This document shows positions 31,215 to 52,468 of a stretch of 64,000 nucleotides of DNA, one piece after another. The notes under the pieces are model-generated. The model ran no database searches. It saw nothing but the letters and a program-made list of their open reading frames with translations, and had not been told where the DNA came from. The stretch spans positions 33,777 to 97,776 of the forward strand of contig JANWWN010000001.1 in NCBI GenBank assembly GCA_025055435.1. The letters are read 5' to 3'. This DNA is from Cyclobacteriaceae bacterium. GTDB taxonomy: Bacteria; Bacteroidota; Bacteroidia; Cytophagales; Cyclobacteriaceae. Position 1 is the stretch's first letter; the number at the start of each line of letters is the position of its first letter. The translations under genes and the position numbers were made by a program.

Positions 31215-31336
31215 ATAGTTGATTTTCGAATCGGGGCTCAAATTACGATGATGCTATCCAAATTCAAATGAAAAGATTTAAACCCTGACATGGTCTGACA
31301 GTTTTGCCGGATGGGTTTAAATACGATTTTTACCGC

Positions 31337-32371
31337 ATGCGCAAAATGCTGAAAAAAATATTTCTTATCGTCCTGATGCTACTGGCACTTACTGCCATCT
31401 GGCATGCCGATTTGTTGCTTTATGCTGCGCGCCAGGGCGCCGGACAATTTTTATTGATCTGGAATGCCCGCCCCGTTAAGGAAGTTGTGGCCGATCCTTC
31501 CGTGCCCGATTCGGTAAAACAGAAGCTCATGTTGGTTGACGAAATCCGGCAGTTTGCCATCAACTCTCTTGGGCTAAAAGATACCCGCAGCTACCGGAAA
31601 CTGTACGACCAGCAGGGCAGGGAAGTGCTATGGGTGGTTACAGCCTGTAAGCCTTTTGAGCTTGTTGAAAAGCGATGGAGGTTTCCGATAGTTGGTGAAG
31701 TTCCCTATAAGGGATTTTTCAATCCTGCACATGCGGAAGCAGAAAAACATAAGCTGGAGGCCGAAGGATGGGATGTAAGTGTACGCAACCCGGGCGGCTG
31801 GTCAACTTTAGGTTGGTTTGAAGACCCTTTACTCAGCAGCATGCTCTTTCGCAGCGAGGGCGACCTGGCCAGTTTGATAATCCATGAGATGGTTCATGCC
31901 ACGTTGTATGTGAAAGACAGTGCCGACCTGAACGAAAATCTGGCTTCGTTTATTGGCGATCGCGGCGCAGAATTTTTTCTTAACTGGAAATATGGCAAAC
32001 ACAGTGATGAACTCCGGCAATACCGGGAAGAAGATATGGAATACCGCAAGCTCAGCGACCATATGCTGCGCGGATATGATCTGCTCGATAGTTTATATAA
32101 AGGCATGGAAGGTTTTTCAGATGAACAAAAAGTTACTCTGAAAAGAAAAGTAATCCGAAACATCATTTCAGCTACCGATACCCTGAAACTGAAATGGTTG
32201 CGCAGTCCGGCGAAAACATATAGCGACTCATTACCTAACAATACCTACTTCATGAATTTTAAACGATATCAGTCGCGACAGGACAACTTTGAAAAAGAGT
32301 GGCAAAGCCGTTTTCGCGGAGATCTGCAGTTATACATTACCTACTTAAAAGAAAAATACCCTTCGCCTTAA
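31337..32371 (+). CDS. Membrane-anchored zinc aminopeptidase (Aminopep family, PF10023-like)
   Basis: 344 aa from the ATG at 31337 (a second ATG at 31346 is also possible). Residues about 5-25 form a signal anchor (IFLIVLMLLALTAIWHA). The metal-binding motif HEMVHATLYV is clear, with the downstream glutamate in NENLASFIGDRGAEFF, as in the predicted aminopeptidase family COG4324. GWSTLGWFEDPLLSS is another family signature. The active domain would face the periplasm. Its stop codon touches the repeat array that precedes the response regulator gene. Natural substrate unknown. Confidence 0.85.
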   Translation: MRKMLKKIFLIVLMLLALTAIWHADLLLYAARQGAGQFLLIWNARPVKEVVADPSVPDSVKQKLMLVDEIRQFAINSLGLKDTRSYRKLYDQQGREVLWVVTACKPFELVEKRWRFPIVGEVPYKGFFNPAHAEAEKHKLEAEGWDVSVRNPGGWSTLGWFEDPLLSSMLFRSEGDLASLIIHEMVHATLYVKDSADLNENLASFIGDRGAEFFLNWKYGKHSDELRQYREEDMEYRKLSDHMLRGYDLLDSLYKGMEGFSDEQKVTLKRKVIRNIISATDTLKLKWLRSPAKTYSDSLPNNTYFMNFKRYQSRQDNFEKEWQSRFRGDLQLYITYLKEKYPSP

Positions 32372-32373
32372 TG

Positions 32374-32422
32374 TTTACGGATTTTTAAGGATTTGTTAAA
32401 ATGGCTTAACGGATTTTTAAAG
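32374..32422 (+). promoter_or_regulatory. Five 11-bp-phased TTAA-type repeats, Pho-box-like array
   Basis: Hexamers TTTACG (32374), TTAAGG (32385), TTAAAA (32396), TTAACG (32406) and TTAAAG (32417) recur every 11, 11, 10 and 11 bases; the first, second and fourth are followed by GATTT-type bases. The array ends 15 bases before a TACTTTTG -7 element. One-turn direct repeats of this kind are how OmpR/PhoB-family regulators bind, so the following gene may be autoregulated. Confidence 0.55.
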
Positions 32423-32436
32423 CCTCATTTTCTGCC

Positions 32437-32444
32437 TACTTTTG
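32437..32444 (+). promoter_or_regulatory. -7 promoter element of the response regulator gene
   Basis: TACTTTTG matches TAnnTTTG, 20 bases before the ATG at 32465. The -33 region has no TTG and is occupied by the repeat array, as expected for an activator-dependent promoter. Confidence 0.5.
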
Positions 32445-32464: not shown

Positions 32465-33151
32465 ATGGCTAACAAAACGGCACACCGGGTATTGGTGGTT
32501 GATGACGAAGAACCCATTCAGGAACTGCTTCGCTACAACCTGGAAAAGAGTGGTTATGAGGTAAAAACAGCGGGAGATGGCTTCAAGGCCATTGAAGTGG
32601 CACGCAAATTCCAACCCGACCTGGTACTGCTCGACATCATGATGCCCAAGATGGATGGTGTGGAAACCTGCCGCCAATTGCGCGAATTACCCTCTTTACA
32701 AAACACCTTTATCATATTTCTCACGGCCCGCTCAGAAGAATATTCCGAAGTTGCGGCATTCGATGTGGGTGCCGATGATTACATCACCAAGCCCATTAAA
32801 CCGAGAGCCCTTTTAAGTCGCATTGCTGCATTATTCCGTCGCGACACCAAGAAGACCGGTAATAATGTAATTACCATCGGAGATTTGGTAATTGACCGCG
32901 ACAGCTATACGGTTAAAGTGCAGGGGCGTGAAGTAAGCTTACCTAAAAAAGAGTTTGAACTCCTTTTCTTCCTGGCGCAAAACCCTAACAAAGTGTTCAG
33001 CCGTGAAGATTTGCTGCAAAACATTTGGGGCTCCGACGTGTATGTGCTGGCCCGCACAGTTGATGTTCACATCCGAAAGGTACGCGAAAAAATAGGCGAA
33101 GATTACATCACTACGGTAAAGGGAGTGGGATATAAGTTTGGTGCGGCTTAA
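32465..33151 (+). CDS. OmpR/PhoB-family response regulator
   Basis: 228 aa from the ATG at 32465; the frame extends upstream to 32393 but only through the repeat array. Receiver domain at about 7-120: acidic pair VVDDEEP (13-14), phosphoacceptor Asp57 in DLVLLDIMMPKMDG, and the lysine in YITKPIKPR. Winged-helix domain at about 135-228 with LPKKEFELLFFLAQNPNKVFSREDLLQNIWG and RTVDVHIRKVREKIG. It pairs with the histidine kinase 128 bases downstream. The pair resembles PhoB-PhoR, but no phosphate transport gene is near, so the signal is uncertain. Confidence 0.93.
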   Translation: MANKTAHRVLVVDDEEPIQELLRYNLEKSGYEVKTAGDGFKAIEVARKFQPDLVLLDIMMPKMDGVETCRQLRELPSLQNTFIIFLTARSEEYSEVAAFDVGADDYITKPIKPRALLSRIAALFRRDTKKTGNNVITIGDLVIDRDSYTVKVQGREVSLPKKEFELLFFLAQNPNKVFSREDLLQNIWGSDVYVLARTVDVHIRKVREKIGEDYITTVKGVGYKFGAA

Positions 33152-33279: not shown

Positions 33280-34326
33280 ATGGTATATTCTTCCCGCACG
33301 CTTGCGTTGTTGTTGGCTATCAGCATCGCATTGGTCACTACGGCCTTTCTTTCGCTGTTGGACGTAAAGTCGTCTGCCTTGCTGGTGGCATTGTTTATTA
33401 GTTTTTCTGTTTCCTATCTGCTTGTTTTTGTAGTACTTGAGTTTCTCATCTTTCGTGAAATCAATAAAATTAACAAGCTCATCAGTAAGCTCCGCAAAAA
33501 AGAACTGAACCGCATTACACGCCATAAATCGTCTTTGCTTAATCCTTTGAAAGGAATTAACGAAGAGATTTATTCATTTGCCGAACTGAAGCAGAAGGAA
33601 ATTGACGAACTGAAAAAACTGGAGGCCTTTCGCAGGGAGTTCATTGCCGATGTTTCGCACGAACTGAAAACACCCATATTTGCCGCACAGGGTTTTGTAC
33701 ATACACTGCTCGATGGTGCGGTGAACGATAAGTCGGTGCGGACAAAATTTCTGAAAAAAGCTGCCAAGAGTCTGGATGGTCTCGATGCCCTGGTGCAGGA
33801 TTTACTTACACTTTCGCAAATCGAAACCGGGCAAATCAAGATGCACTTTGAAAGCATTGACCTGGTAAAACTTACTGAAGAGGTGTTCGAGCAATTGGAA
33901 GACAAGGCCAAAAAGCGAAACGTCCGCCTGCGAATTGACACCGAAACCCGGCCGGTGATTGTATATGCTGACTGGCAACGGATTTTTCAGGTGATATCCA
34001 ATCTGGTATCCAATGCCATCAAACATTCCTATGAAGGAGGCGAAGTGATCGTGTGGTTTGAAATCGGCAAAAAAAACGTTACTACCCATGTACGCGACTA
34101 TGGCGAGGGTATTCCGGCCGAGCACCTGCCCCGTATTTTCGAACGGTTTTACCGCGTGGATAAAAGCCGCAGCCGCGAAAAAGGAGGCACAGGCCTGGGG
34201 CTGGCCATCGTGAAGCATATTTTGGAAAATCATAATACCAAAGCCGAGGTGAAAAGCGAACCGGAAAAAGGCTCCGACTTCTTTTTTAAACTGCCACGCT
34301 TTAAACCGGGCGAAGAAAAAGAATAA
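33280..34326 (+). CDS. Sensor histidine kinase (PhoR-like)
   Basis: 348 aa. Two hydrophobic helices at about 7-27 and 33-58 with almost no periplasmic loop, so it has no obvious external sensor domain. A basic, coiled linker follows, then the DHp helix with phosphoacceptor His127 (FIADVSHELKTPIFAAQG), and the ATPase domain with N box NLVSNAIKHS, G1 DYGEGIP, F box RIFERFYRVDKSRS and G2 GGTGLGLAIVKH. Partner of the response regulator just upstream. Its stop overlaps the next ATG by one base (TAATG). Confidence 0.93.
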   Translation: MVYSSRTLALLLAISIALVTTAFLSLLDVKSSALLVALFISFSVSYLLVFVVLEFLIFREINKINKLISKLRKKELNRITRHKSSLLNPLKGINEEIYSFAELKQKEIDELKKLEAFRREFIADVSHELKTPIFAAQGFVHTLLDGAVNDKSVRTKFLKKAAKSLDGLDALVQDLLTLSQIETGQIKMHFESIDLVKLTEEVFEQLEDKAKKRNVRLRIDTETRPVIVYADWQRIFQVISNLVSNAIKHSYEGGEVIVWFEIGKKNVTTHVRDYGEGIPAEHLPRIFERFYRVDKSRSREKGGTGLGLAIVKHILENHNTKAEVKSEPEKGSDFFFKLPRFKPGEEKE

Positions 34327-37747: not shown

Positions 37748-38503
37748 ATGCAAGTCTTAAGGAGCCGGTATATTCCTCTGGTGCTGCTCTGGATTTGTTT
37801 TAATGGATTATGCCAAAATCCGGAAAAGCCCAAGCGCACTTACATGGAAACGAAATATACGTTGGAGCGACTTGCCAGATTAGGCAGTGATGATCCGACT
37901 GCTTTAGGGACAGTACAATCACTGCCTATGCCTCCTCCTGATGTTAAAGGCAGCGACTTACTTAATCCGGGTTACAATGCTTCCACTTTTCTGCTCAACG
38001 ACAGTTCTTTACTTAATAACCTTCCCGCTAAGTATTATGTATTACGAAATGAGTTCGATGTAAAAACGCCACAAGGTATTCGCACGTTGAAAGGAGATCG
38101 CGTGAAGAGTTTTATGTGGGTTGACAGCGCTTCAAAAAAGACTGAGTTCTTTGTTAACATGAAAGAGTACCAGGGAGCGAATGGCTCCCCCGGTTCAGGG
38201 TTTATGCAGATTCTTTCAGAGGGAAAAATCACCCTGCTTAAGCAAACTGAAGTGATTTTTAAAAAGGCCAATTACCATGTCGCCATGCATGTAGGCAGTC
38301 CCGATCATGAGTTTATCCGAAAAACACATTTGTTTTACCTCACAGGCAAAACTTTTCAACCACTACCCGGAAAAAAGAAATTGTTGACCGTTTTTCCCGA
38401 CCATCAGGATGAACTGCAGCGATTTATTAAAGTCAATCAACTGGATTTAAATCTTGAACATCATATTCAGATACTGGTGGATTATTACAACTCACTTAAA
38501 TAG
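37748..38503 (+). CDS. Exported protein of unknown family, tandem paralogue A
   Basis: 251 aa with a signal peptide at about 1-24 (IPLVLLWICFNGLCQ). I do not recognise the family. The product is clearly paralogous to the next gene: both have YxLER near residue 40, TVQxLPMxPPxVxGxDLLN, then NxxTFLLNDSSLL, YYxxRNEFDVKT, RTLKGDRVKSFxWxDSA, FVNMKEY, GFMQIL, and LLKQTEVIFKxANYHVA, and both end DYYNSL. Three lysine-rich beta-type segments suggest a compact beta-rich fold. The genes follow tsf but are probably an independent pair, perhaps periplasmic or surface proteins. Confidence 0.7.
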   Translation: MQVLRSRYIPLVLLWICFNGLCQNPEKPKRTYMETKYTLERLARLGSDDPTALGTVQSLPMPPPDVKGSDLLNPGYNASTFLLNDSSLLNNLPAKYYVLRNEFDVKTPQGIRTLKGDRVKSFMWVDSASKKTEFFVNMKEYQGANGSPGSGFMQILSEGKITLLKQTEVIFKKANYHVAMHVGSPDHEFIRKTHLFYLTGKTFQPLPGKKKLLTVFPDHQDELQRFIKVNQLDLNLEHHIQILVDYYNSLK

Positions 38504-38532: not shown

Positions 38533-39276
38533 ATGAAAATTAATTCTAAACTACCTGCGTTTGTTTTTGCCTTTTTGCAGGTAATTGCGCTGAAAGCCCA
38601 GCAGACTTCTTCAACCCGCAACTTCATGCAAAACCGGTACTTGCTGGAGCGCATGTCCAGCACCGAACAGTTGGCTATGGGTACCGTTCAGACCTTACCA
38701 ATGGCTCCACCCGAAGTATTGGGCACTGACCTTCTGAACCGGAATTACAATCGTGCAACGTTTTTGCTTAACGACAGCTCTCTTCTTGAAGGTCTGCCGG
38801 CGCGGTATTACATCATGAGAAATGAATTCGATGTGAAGACCGGGCAGGGAGTACGTACCCTTAAAGGTGATCGTGTAAAAAGTTTTGTGTGGCTTGACAG
38901 CGCTACCAGCAAGCCACAGGTTTTTGTGAACATGAAAGAATATAAAAGAGATGATGGTACACCGGGCGCGGGTTTTATGCAGATTTTGTGCGAAGGAAAA
39001 ATCGGCCTGCTTAAACAAACCGAAGTAATCTTTAAAGAGGCCAACTATCATGTTGCCCTCAATGTTGGCAGCCGCGATCACCAATTCATTACAAAAACTC
39101 ACCTTTATTACCTCATAGGTTCTACGTTCCGGCTTTTGCCGCCGAAAAAGAAAATGCTTTTTTTATTTAACGACCATCAGGCAGAAATTCAACGCTTTGT
39201 CAAGATTAATGAGCTCGACCTGACTAACGAATATCACGTTCAGGCCCTTTTTGATTATTACAACTCACTTCAATAG
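38533..39276 (+). CDS. Exported protein of unknown family, tandem paralogue B
   Basis: 247 aa with a signal peptide at about 1-22 (FVFAFLQVIALKAQ). It shares the motif series of the gene 29 bases upstream (LPMAPPEV, FLLNDSSLLEGLPARYY, FDVKTGQGVRTLKGDRVKSF, NMKEYKRDDGTPGAGFMQIL), at a level that suggests an old but not ancient duplication. The first 45 residues and the lysine-rich segment KKKMLFLFNDHQAEIQRF differ most. Function unknown. It ends four bases from the convergent acyltransferase gene. Confidence 0.7.
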   Translation: MKINSKLPAFVFAFLQVIALKAQQTSSTRNFMQNRYLLERMSSTEQLAMGTVQTLPMAPPEVLGTDLLNRNYNRATFLLNDSSLLEGLPARYYIMRNEFDVKTGQGVRTLKGDRVKSFVWLDSATSKPQVFVNMKEYKRDDGTPGAGFMQILCEGKIGLLKQTEVIFKEANYHVALNVGSRDHQFITKTHLYYLIGSTFRLLPPKKKMLFLFNDHQAEIQRFVKINELDLTNEYHVQALFDYYNSLQ

Positions 39277-50212: not shown

Positions 50213-52468
50213 TTAGCTATGAATTTTAAGCTTCGCAAAGCTAAGTAATAAGGTTTTCTCGCCAAAATCATCAAAGTGGATTTTGGCTTTTCGTTCGGGT
50301 ACGTCTGCATCAACTTGAACAACAGTTCCGAAGCCAAAACGCGGGTGCTCCACCCGCATACCTTCTTTCAGATTTCGCGTATCACTGGGTGTAAAGTCGG
50401 GTGGAGGCGTGTAGGTTGAGGTGCGCTGTGGTGCGGCAGCTTTTCGCTGGCGACTGATTCCGTTTATCAGGGTTTTTGCATAACCGGACGCCGGGGGCGG
50501 GGCTGACTGTAAACCGGTGAAACGTTTGCTGGTGCGTATATAGGAGGGATCAATCTCATTGAGAAACCGGCTGGGCGAGCAATCCTGAAGCCGTCCGTAG
50601 TTGTAACGCATCAATGCGTAGGATAAAAACAATCTTTTACGTGCGCGGGTGATGGCCACGTAAAACAACCGGCGTTCTTCTTCGAGGTCAGCTCGACTGC
50701 TCAGCATCATTTGTGAAGGGAAGAGATTCTCTTCCATACCTACCACATATACATATTTAAACTCCAGGCCTTTGGCCATGTGGATGGTCATAAGCGTAAC
50801 TTTATCCGATCCGGTGTCTTTATCTTCATCCTGTCCGGTGAGCAGGCTTACTTCCTGCAAAAAGGCTGTTAATGATTTATCCTCCCGTTCATCATCGTCC
50901 ACAAATTCGCGGATGGCATTGAACAATTCCTGAACGTTTTCGTATCGGTTTATGCCTTCATCGGTTTTATCGGCATGAAGCTCGCGCAGAAGGCCCGAGG
51001 CGCGGGCTATTTCCAACGCAGCTTCATAGGCATTTTTTCGCTGTACTTCCAGTTCACATCGCTTAATGAGTGTAACAAAGTTTTCCACCGGACCGGCCGA
51101 CCGATTGCCTAAAAAGTGTGATGCATTTTGCAGCACTTCCCATAGGGAAATGCCGTGGTCGTTGGCGGCTACTACAATCTTATCAACGGTGGTATCGCCT
51201 ATACCTCGCTTGGGCAGGTTTACGATGCGCCTGAATGAAGCTTCGTCATCGTGATTTAAGGTGAAACGCAGGTATGCGAGGAGGTCCTTGATTTCCTTGC
51301 GCTGATAAAACGATAAACCGCCTACGATTTTATACGGTATGTTTGCCCTGCGAAGGGCTTCCTCAAACGACCGGGACTGAACGTTCTTACGGTACAATAC
51401 GGCAAAGTCGCTGTATCGCAGCTGATTCTGCATTTTTTCTTCAAAGATGCTGGTAGCAATCAACCTTCCTTCTTCGTTGTCGCTTACAGCTTTAATCAGT
51501 TCAATATATGAGCCCGGTTCATTTTGTGTCCAAATTCGTTTGGGGATCTGAGCCTTGTTATGCCGAATTACCGAGTTGGCTGCTTCTACAATAACCTGCG
51601 TGGAGCGGTAGTTTTGTTCAAGCTTGAATATTTTCAGGTCCGGATAGTCGCGTTCAAAATTCAGGATGTTCGCAATGGTGGCACCCCGGAATGCATAAAT
51701 ACTTTGTGCATCATCGCCCACAACGCAAATATTCTGATGAACATTAGCCAGCTTTCGGATGATGTAATACTGGCACAGGTTGGTGTCCTGAAATTCATCA
51801 ACCATAATGTAATGAATCCGGTATTGGTATTTATTCAATACTTCCAGGTGTTCGGTAAATAAGCGGTGTGTGTTGAGCAGGAGGTCATCAAAATCCATTG
51901 CACCCGATTTGTAGCAACGCTGGGCATAAGCTTTATAGATGCGGCCGATTTCGGGGCGTTGCTGTTCGCGGTCCTGCTCAAGCAGTTCAGGATTGGCCAG
52001 ATACTGTTCCCAGGTGATAAGCTGATTTTTGGCGGCGGAAATGCGGCCGTACAACACATTGGGCTTATAGGTGTTTTCGTCCAGATTAAGCTCCTTGACG
52101 ATGGTTTTCAGCAGGGCTTTGGTGTCGTCTGTATCGTAAATGGTGAAGTTGTGCGGGTAACCGATATGGTGCGCCTCTGCACGAAGGATGCGGGCAAATA
52201 CCGAGTGGAAAGTTCCCATCCAGATGTTCCGTGCATCGGTGCCTGCGATCGGCTCAATACGGTCGCGCATTTCGCGGGCAGCCTTGTTGGTAAAGGTTAA
52301 TGCCATGATATTGAATGCATCAACACCCTGGGCTTTTATCAGATGGGCAATGCGGTAAGTCAAAACGCGCGTTTTACCGGAGCCGGCACCGGCTATAATC
52401 ATGGCTGGTCCTTCCGTATGCAACACCGCCTCGCGTTGTGCATCATTCAGTTCGTTCAGATAATCCAT
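50213..52468 (-). CDS. pcrA: UvrD/PcrA-family DNA helicase
   Basis: Superfamily I 3'-5' helicase of repair and replication, 751 aa from the ATG at 52468 (MDYLNELNDAQREAVLHTEG), the normal start; the frame to 52543 adds nothing conserved. Motifs: AGAGSGKTRVLTYRIAHLI, TFTNKAAREMRDRI, VDEFQDTN, GDDAQSIYAFRGA, LEQNYRST, TIHMAKGLEFKYVYV and VAITRARKRLFLSY. The C-terminal 60 residues form a Tudor-like PcrA tail (MRVEHPRFGFGTVVQV) known to contact RNA polymerase in relatives. The choice between the names uvrD and pcrA is conventional. Confidence 0.94.
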   Translation of the reverse strand: MDYLNELNDAQREAVLHTEGPAMIIAGAGSGKTRVLTYRIAHLIKAQGVDAFNIMALTFTNKAAREMRDRIEPIAGTDARNIWMGTFHSVFARILRAEAHHIGYPHNFTIYDTDDTKALLKTIVKELNLDENTYKPNVLYGRISAAKNQLITWEQYLANPELLEQDREQQRPEIGRIYKAYAQRCYKSGAMDFDDLLLNTHRLFTEHLEVLNKYQYRIHYIMVDEFQDTNLCQYYIIRKLANVHQNICVVGDDAQSIYAFRGATIANILNFERDYPDLKIFKLEQNYRSTQVIVEAANSVIRHNKAQIPKRIWTQNEPGSYIELIKAVSDNEEGRLIATSIFEEKMQNQLRYSDFAVLYRKNVQSRSFEEALRRANIPYKIVGGLSFYQRKEIKDLLAYLRFTLNHDDEASFRRIVNLPKRGIGDTTVDKIVVAANDHGISLWEVLQNASHFLGNRSAGPVENFVTLIKRCELEVQRKNAYEAALEIARASGLLRELHADKTDEGINRYENVQELFNAIREFVDDDEREDKSLTAFLQEVSLLTGQDEDKDTGSDKVTLMTIHMAKGLEFKYVYVVGMEENLFPSQMMLSSRADLEEERRLFYVAITRARKRLFLSYALMRYNYGRLQDCSPSRFLNEIDPSYIRTSKRFTGLQSAPPPASGYAKTLINGISRQRKAAAPQRTSTYTPPPDFTPSDTRNLKEGMRVEHPRFGFGTVVQVDADVPERKAKIHFDDFGEKTLLLSFAKLKIHS

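Follow-up and report, generated by a model that had tools for sequence, protein, structure and literature searches.

The stretch in front of the PhoB-type response regulator gene of this Cyclobacteriaceae genome is, on comparative sequence evidence, very probably a Pho box, and the protein that binds it would be this regulator, encoded next to it. This conclusion is drawn from the combination of a two-box core conserved throughout the genus, matches of the derived site matrix before Pst operons of relatives, and similar arrays before PlcP-like genes. With a probability of roughly four in five, we regard positions 32374-32422 as a helically phased operator of this regulator, the regulator-kinase pair as autoregulated, and the same family of boxes as governing a Pho regulon. 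Array and regulator would probably constitute a Bacteroidota version of the known phosphate-starvation switch.

The box array and its genomic context

In the window, by which we mean the whole 64-kb stretch of DNA analysed here, boxes start at positions 32374, 32385, 32396, 32406 and 32417 and thus follow each other in steps of 11, 11, 10 and 11 bases. Direct reading of the letters bears out the array of helically spaced boxes that a sequence-only reading had placed before a PhoB-like gene. Its description as five TTAA-type boxes holds for four of them, all at the positions given; the box at 32374 reads TTTACG and contains no TTAA. The array begins right after the upstream gene, whose stop codon ends 2 bases ahead of box 1. 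The following features are relevant to our analysis:

31304..32371, + strand: upstream gene, putative aminopeptidase (PF10023, by Pfam); start codon uncertain
32374..32379, + strand: box 1, TTTACG; the weakest box, no TTAA, unconserved in the genus alignment
32385..32390, + strand: box 2, TTAAGG; belongs to the conserved core as its first half, with the TTAAGGA column block identical in 17/17 genus promoters
32385..32399, - strand: two-box core TTAAGGATTTGTTAA, on the other strand TTAACAAATCCTTAA; at the best matrix site of the window, conserved in the genus alignment
32396..32401, + strand: box 3, TTAAAA; belongs to the conserved core as its second half, with TTGTTAA identical in 17/17 genus promoters
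32406..32411, + strand: box 4, TTAACG; unconserved across the genus
32417..32422, + strand: box 5, TTAAAG; occupies the place of the -33 element, a T-rich proximal box being mostly kept in the genus
32437..32444, + strand: promoter element TACTTTTG of the Bacteroidota -7 type; TAc.TTTg in the genus alignment
32465..33151, + strand: PhoB-type response regulator, 228 aa; receiver domain PF00072 and Trans_reg_C PF00486; ATG at 32465
33280..34326, + strand: PhoR/PnpS-type histidine kinase, 348 aa; PF00512 and PF02518; best NCBIfam model PnpS with 276.9 bits, under its cut-off of 400

The element TACTTTTG fits what we take to be the Bacteroidota -7 promoter consensus, TAnnTTTG. Between the end of box 5 (32422) and this element (32437-32444) lie 14 bases, and the -33 TTG is indeed missing, as had been noticed earlier, there being no TTG within 32410-32425. 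The gene behind the array was rightly assigned to the OmpR/PhoB group: its product combines a receiver domain (PF00072, 112.4 bits) with a winged-helix Trans_reg_C domain (PF00486, 90.4 bits), both above cut-off. It scores below the cut-offs of the PhoB equivalog models TIGR02154 (240.7 vs 296.2 bits) and NF053854 (225.5 vs 270 bits). Further downstream, the tandem open reading frames 37748-38503 and 38533-39276 (251 and 247 aa) resemble each other by eye and are apparently a duplication.

The TTAA boxes at 32385, 32396, 32406 and 32417 are the sole chain of four at steps of 10-11 bases in the window. When 60 sequences of this length (64 kb) were simulated with an order-2 Markov model, their longest chains had two members in 56 cases and three in four cases, and never four. 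The pattern TTAAN{6,7}TTAAN{6,7}TTAA was found at three places in the genome from which the window derives (G000; 2.79 Mb, 97% complete), two of them inside the array, vs five per strand in the reversed control. Triplets are consequently not rare, but four boxes in a row are. The proposal to find the regulon by scanning for three TTAA units has accordingly failed, since in its own genome such a scan returns the array and one other place, a yield below the control count. The search motif TTAANNNNTTGTTAA with one mismatch was discarded as well (118 matches vs 115 control matches). When one mismatch was allowed to TTAAGGAATTGTTAA, the phoB site was retrieved in 17/17 genomes of the genus, and the other matches were few and near the control rate. 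A better unit than the literal TTAA is a [TGA]TAACA-like box at an 11-base pitch.

Conservation in the genus and in relatives

Homologs of the regulator were collected from 29 further genomes and from 80 contigs, two sets that may overlap. Of the resulting 110 ortholog loci, one was too short, and the 109 upstream regions that were used include the window and many close relatives. TTAAN7TTAA is present in 89 of these 109 regions, and the distances between TTAA units peak sharply at 11 bases (136 pairs vs 12 at 10 bases and five at 12 bases), with lesser peaks at 22 bases (57 pairs) and 17 bases (47 pairs).

Within the genus, the two-box core TTAAGGA[A/T]TTGTTAA precedes the regulator ortholog in all 17 genomes; the exact 15-mer is TTAAGGAATTGTTAA in 15 of them, and G000 and G013 carry TTAAGGATTTGTTAA. 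Alignment of the 17 promoters yields TTAAGGAaTTGTTAA, then a T-rich proximal box at -33, and then TAc.TTTg. As boxes 1 and 4 are not common to the genus and the core is, the five-box appearance is local to the window. Conserved boxes thus stand before the regulator's own gene in 17/17 genus genomes, as is characteristic of an autoregulated phoBR promoter. In 16 of these genomes, no strong match exists besides the regulator copy that carries the box; the remaining one, G003, has a second match that is 47% identical.

Matches before Pst operons

The site matrix comprises 19 columns and was derived from 28 phoB promoter sites, with identical sites collapsed, G031 left out, and the training search covering the strand along transcription only. 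Its best site in the window, with 23.3 bits, is 32383-32401, and the runner-up scores 15.6 bits at 50918. The matrix was run over the 300 bases ahead of pstS, and likewise over those ahead of the gene preceding it. Of 34 stretches around pstB, L227 was set aside, as were L225, L229 and L230, in which no pstS was found, so that 30 operons were available. The upstream regions of 131 other open reading frames from the same stretches, unmatched in A-T content, served as controls. The operons were divided by a protein motif of PstS into GSST-type and other pst-like operons, a split that was chosen after a first look at the data and in which "phosphate-type" is our own reading.

Sites of at least 12 bits occur in 9/15 GSST-type Pst operons and in 1/131 control upstream regions (Fisher 7e-10, uncorrected for relatedness). 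The other pst-like operons, with a site in one out of 15, were dropped as candidate targets; without the split, the count is 10/30 operons vs 1/131 controls. At 14 bits or more, 7/15 GSST-type operons contrast with 0/131 controls, and laxer thresholds shrink the difference: at 6, 8, 10 and 12 bits, 13, 10, 9 and 9 of the 15 GSST-type operons and 22, 14, 6 and 1 of the 131 controls have a site, so that the comparison at 8 bits is 10/15 vs 14/131. None of 200 column-permuted matrices reached nine GSST-type operons. Six of the 15 GSST-type operons have no site at 12 bits. The simpler count of TTAAN7TTAA gives 10/31 operons vs 4/149 controls, and two genomes (L176, L212) carry the exact core TTAACAATTCCTTAA ahead of pstS, in reversed orientation. 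The expectation that related sites precede phosphate genes is hence supported in relatives, and the idea that the array provides a motif for finding a regulon survives in the form of the phoB-promoter matrix, not in that of literal triplets. What defines a Pho box array, tandem boxes at about 11 bases before phosphate genes, is present, its Pst part in relatives only.

A search for PstB itself at E <= 1e-60 found it in 0/17 genomes of the genus, with control rings positive in 13/14, and the genus consequently gives no sign, by this marker and threshold, of a classical Pho regulon with Pst-PhoU signalling. All 17 genomes have kept a PhoB/PhoR-type pair despite this lack of PstB (E <= 1e-60). 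Across the order, 25 of 148 genomes contain PstB (E <= 1e-80), as do 5/26 of the genomes reached through the loci. A porin target in the window's own genome was rejected, there being no PF07396 match in G000; 13/17 genus genomes have one, and most of these porins lack an array. Two OprO-like porins (L182, L183) carry TTAAGCCAATGTTAA.

A regulator homolog is present in each of the 16 Pst-bearing genomes that were checked. The scoring of its copies extended over 22 loci except L356 and L357, the two third copies not being among those scored. Sites of at least 12 bits lie upstream of 2/16 main copies and of 4/4 second copies (G104, G118, G157, G196), counts that, like those for the Pst operons, are not independent, since G157 and G196 represent one genus. 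In Pst-bearing genomes, the direct ortholog is therefore not necessarily the copy to which the box belongs. The second phoB copies of G157 and G196 are located 3.6 kb upstream of the porin-pst genes, and before each of them the exact core TTAACAATTCCTTAA precedes a TA[CT]TTTTA.

A PlcP-like gene and other candidate targets

A sequence model of the sites ranked the phoB promoter first in 16 of the 17 genus genomes and second in one, a circular result because such sites had trained the model. Its secondary sites pointed to a metallophosphoesterase gene (PF12850) at G000:C3. Four of the 17 PlcP-like sites were among the matches listed in this search and prompted the choice of the gene, three of them being taken up; the remaining 13 were not among the matches listed, though they come from close kin. 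When the regions upstream of target genes were scored, L297, L298, L299 and L302 were without a gene start, and L304-L308 and L336 were left out.

Four boxes at an exact 11-base pitch lie before TACnTTTG upstream of the PlcP-like gene in 17/17 genus genomes. In the gap-free alignment of 16/16 promoters, TAACA, TAA, TGA and TAA stand at 0, 11, 22 and 33, with TACnTTTG 14 bases past the start of the last box; G012, the 17th, has the same layout. The matrix reaches 12 bits or more at 14/17 of these loci, and where it scores low (L284, 0.4; L287, 6.0; L303, 8.7 bits), the four-box array is still visible by eye and, for L284 and L287, in the alignment. In the source organism (L268), the PlcP-like gene runs with its stop codon into the start of a gene for a glycosyltransferase (PF13528), and this adjoining of metallophosphoesterase (PF12850) and glycosyltransferase is the arrangement known from PlcP lipid remodelling. 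The metallophosphoesterase may be a PlcP with phospholipase C activity or, alternatively, an LpxH relative. In marine bacteria, PlcP next to a glycosyltransferase is described as a lipid module that saves phosphorus and has putative Pho boxes, and phosphorus starvation induces plcP there, in a flavobacterium among others (PMC4796936).

Several further loci were observed along the way. G003 (L285) has the PlcP-like gene, a glycosyltransferase-like open reading frame and its second PhoB-like regulator (47% identical) side by side, and in G051, G143 and G088 (L207, L210, L214) an open reading frame with a PlcP-like start is seen by eye about 2 kb upstream of pstS. PhoH was rejected as a genus-wide target, as sites of at least 12 bits occur in 4/17 genus loci only, the window's genome not among them; the PIN-PhoH gene has a site in G002 and G011 (L309, L310) and weaker ones at L314 and L316, the other 13 loci scoring under 12 bits. 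Sites TGTTACGAAATTGTTA precede a TonB-dependent receptor gene (Plug domain) in G004, G007, G015 and G016 (loci L255, L261, L262, L266, L278). Secondary matches were found before genes for a FabH-type synthase, a TonB receptor (both names Pfam-based), a 253-262-aa gene and a 152-aa protein, in two to four genomes each. A second dense TTAA/TTAACA array, at G000:C56:34397-34462 (L116, L117, L180), is flanked by a divergent gene of 257 aa that has no Pfam match and by a gene for an aldehyde dehydrogenase. A similar site occurs at the counterpart locus in G013 (L154), and another before a gene of similar size in G015 (L249), a likeness judged by eye.

Proposed mode of action and alternative interpretations

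The data lend themselves to a model in which phosphorylated PhoB-type dimers would occupy pairs of boxes one helical turn apart; every box would accommodate a single DNA-binding domain, and all domains would face the same side of the helix. The last box, at -33 of a TAnnTTTG promoter, would substitute for the missing TTG and let the regulator meet the sigma factor, and occupancy of the array would render the regulator-kinase pair autoregulated. In relatives, the same family of boxes would govern extra phoB copies along with pstS and porin genes; in the genus, it would govern the PlcP-like gene, together with the glycosyltransferase gene that overlaps it in the source organism. From the pitch, conservation and distribution of the sites we infer binding by the encoded protein, phosphate as the signal and recruitment of RNA polymerase.

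Judging from the position of the conserved boxes, autoregulation of the pair is likely; the earlier claim went further and proposed self-activation. Boxes do stand before the regulator's own gene in 17/17 genomes, but control through them may be positive or negative, because the orientation of the core differs from that at pstS and PlcP-like genes. The core TTAAGGAATTGTTAA runs along transcription at phoB of genus and family, and is reversed at 7/7 GSST-type pstS sites of at least 12 bits, at the PlcP-like genes, and at the four second phoB copies. An inverted array over the -33 region might hence block its own promoter, with boxes of opposite orientation activating pstS and the PlcP-like gene, and the placement of the proximal box on the -33 position would suit such autorepression. 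The promoter, however, lacks a -33 TTG just as activated promoters do, the porin sites of at least 12 bits face both ways (three forward, two reverse), and PhoB of Flavobacterium johnsoniae rises under Pi depletion in the data used here (PMC8115612). We therefore consider autorepression unlikely, albeit the strongest of the competing explanations.

Somewhat less probable still is that box and regulator are real but in this Pst-less genus answer another cue, from envelope or lipids, and that phosphate control is kept only in the Pst-bearing relatives, there perhaps through a second copy. The absence of PstB from 17/17 genus genomes (E <= 1e-60) and the preference of the box for second over main copies would agree with this, as would the scores of the regulator with the YycF model (221 bits, NCBIfam) and of the kinase with the WalK model (236 bits). 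In Riemerella anatipestifer, direct PhoP targets lie mainly on the membrane (PMC9603813), and deletion of phoPR raises pstS mRNA 8-fold (PMC5399024); the latter is a poor fit to a plain activator. Against another cue speak the best NCBIfam models of the pair, PhoB for the regulator and PnpS/PhoR for the kinase, and the induction of plcP by phosphorus starvation reported for marine bacteria (PMC4796936) and F. johnsoniae (PMC8115612).

It is improbable that a different member of the OmpR/PhoB family, with an ArcA-like motif, binds the array. ArcA of Escherichia coli does use two to five direct repeats with a spacing of mostly 11 bases (PMC3798270), and the motif of Riemerella PhoP has been described as resembling that of ArcA (PMC9603813), but the site precedes the regulator's gene in 17/17 genus genomes and second phoB copies in four Pst-bearing genomes. 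An A-T rich, UP-like promoter upstream sequence, or mere chance, can practically be dismissed, for although an A-T rich region begins just past the stop codon, the 15-mer is conserved, the pitch is 11 bases, and simulations gave no chain of four. The reading as a Pho box of the adjacent regulator is thus the one that we prefer, and the initial interpretation is supported in part, by the conservation, the regulator gene, and the Pst and PlcP-like sites; the triplet scan and the sign of activation are the parts that are not.

Comparison with known systems

The Pho box of E. coli PhoB has a TGTCA-type core and works at a sigma-70 promoter; the array shares with it the 11-base pitch, the box that replaces the -35 element, and probably autoregulation. 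The boxes of Bacillus subtilis PhoP are TTAACA direct repeats about 11 bases apart, and the array shares this type of repeat and spacing, the B. subtilis promoters being of the sigma-A kind. The repeats of the E. coli box are given as 8 bp with a 3-bp linker, and the same architecture is reported for the cyanobacterial SphR box, CTTAACCT in tandem (PMC1906773). SphR shares TTAA-centred boxes and the 11-base pitch, taken as three boxes before pst genes, but differs in the flanks and in that autoregulation is exceptional there (PMC1906773). E. coli ArcA has the regulator family in common with our system, as well as arrays of two to five repeats whose centres are mostly 11 bases apart; it differs in its redox regulon and in the unconserved location and orientation of its sites (PMC3798270).

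Closest in taxonomy are systems from the same phylum. For R. anatipestifer PhoP, DAP-seq gave TTTAACA as the most conserved letters, and in EMSA the protein bound DNA ahead of its own operon; phylum, an OmpR-family regulator with a PhoR-type kinase and a TTAACA-type motif are shared, and own-operon binding would be as well (PMC9603813). This motif supports our type of box and lowers its novelty. The paper likens it to that of ArcA and stresses aerotolerance, PhoP being a possible ortholog of our regulator, and the part of it used here reports no pst or plcP array (PMC9603813). In F. johnsoniae, Pi depletion raised the transcripts of PhoB (FC 3.06), PlcP (8.59) and a glycosyltransferase of the PhoBR operon (5.42), genes likened to ours by name; "Pho box", "motif" and "promoter" each occur zero times in that text (PMC8115612). 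PhoB of Bacteroides fragilis binds the pstC promoter in EMSA, with no motif given in the part of the report used (PMC3547664). Our literature search returned no Pho box for Cytophagales among the matches listed, which is weak evidence, as subscription journals lay mostly outside its reach.

Tentatively, and with the odds somewhat against it, the Pst-less genus might have reduced its Pho regulon to autoregulation, a PlcP-like/glycosyltransferase operon that saves phospholipid, and some targets particular to single lineages. The operator at the regulator's own promoter, being inverted, would possibly repress it, and phosphate sensing would be independent of Pst. Our findings provide a usable Pho-box model for environmental Bacteroidota, [TGA]TAACA-like units at an 11-base pitch, two to four in number and the last near -33 of TAnnTTTG, and they draw attention to the remodelling of membrane lipids as a target in bacteria that lack the Pst transporter. 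Seen against the known systems, this is an ordinary kind of element that was rightly spotted; it yields a useful refinement of the motif and hints at a Pho regulon that does without Pst.
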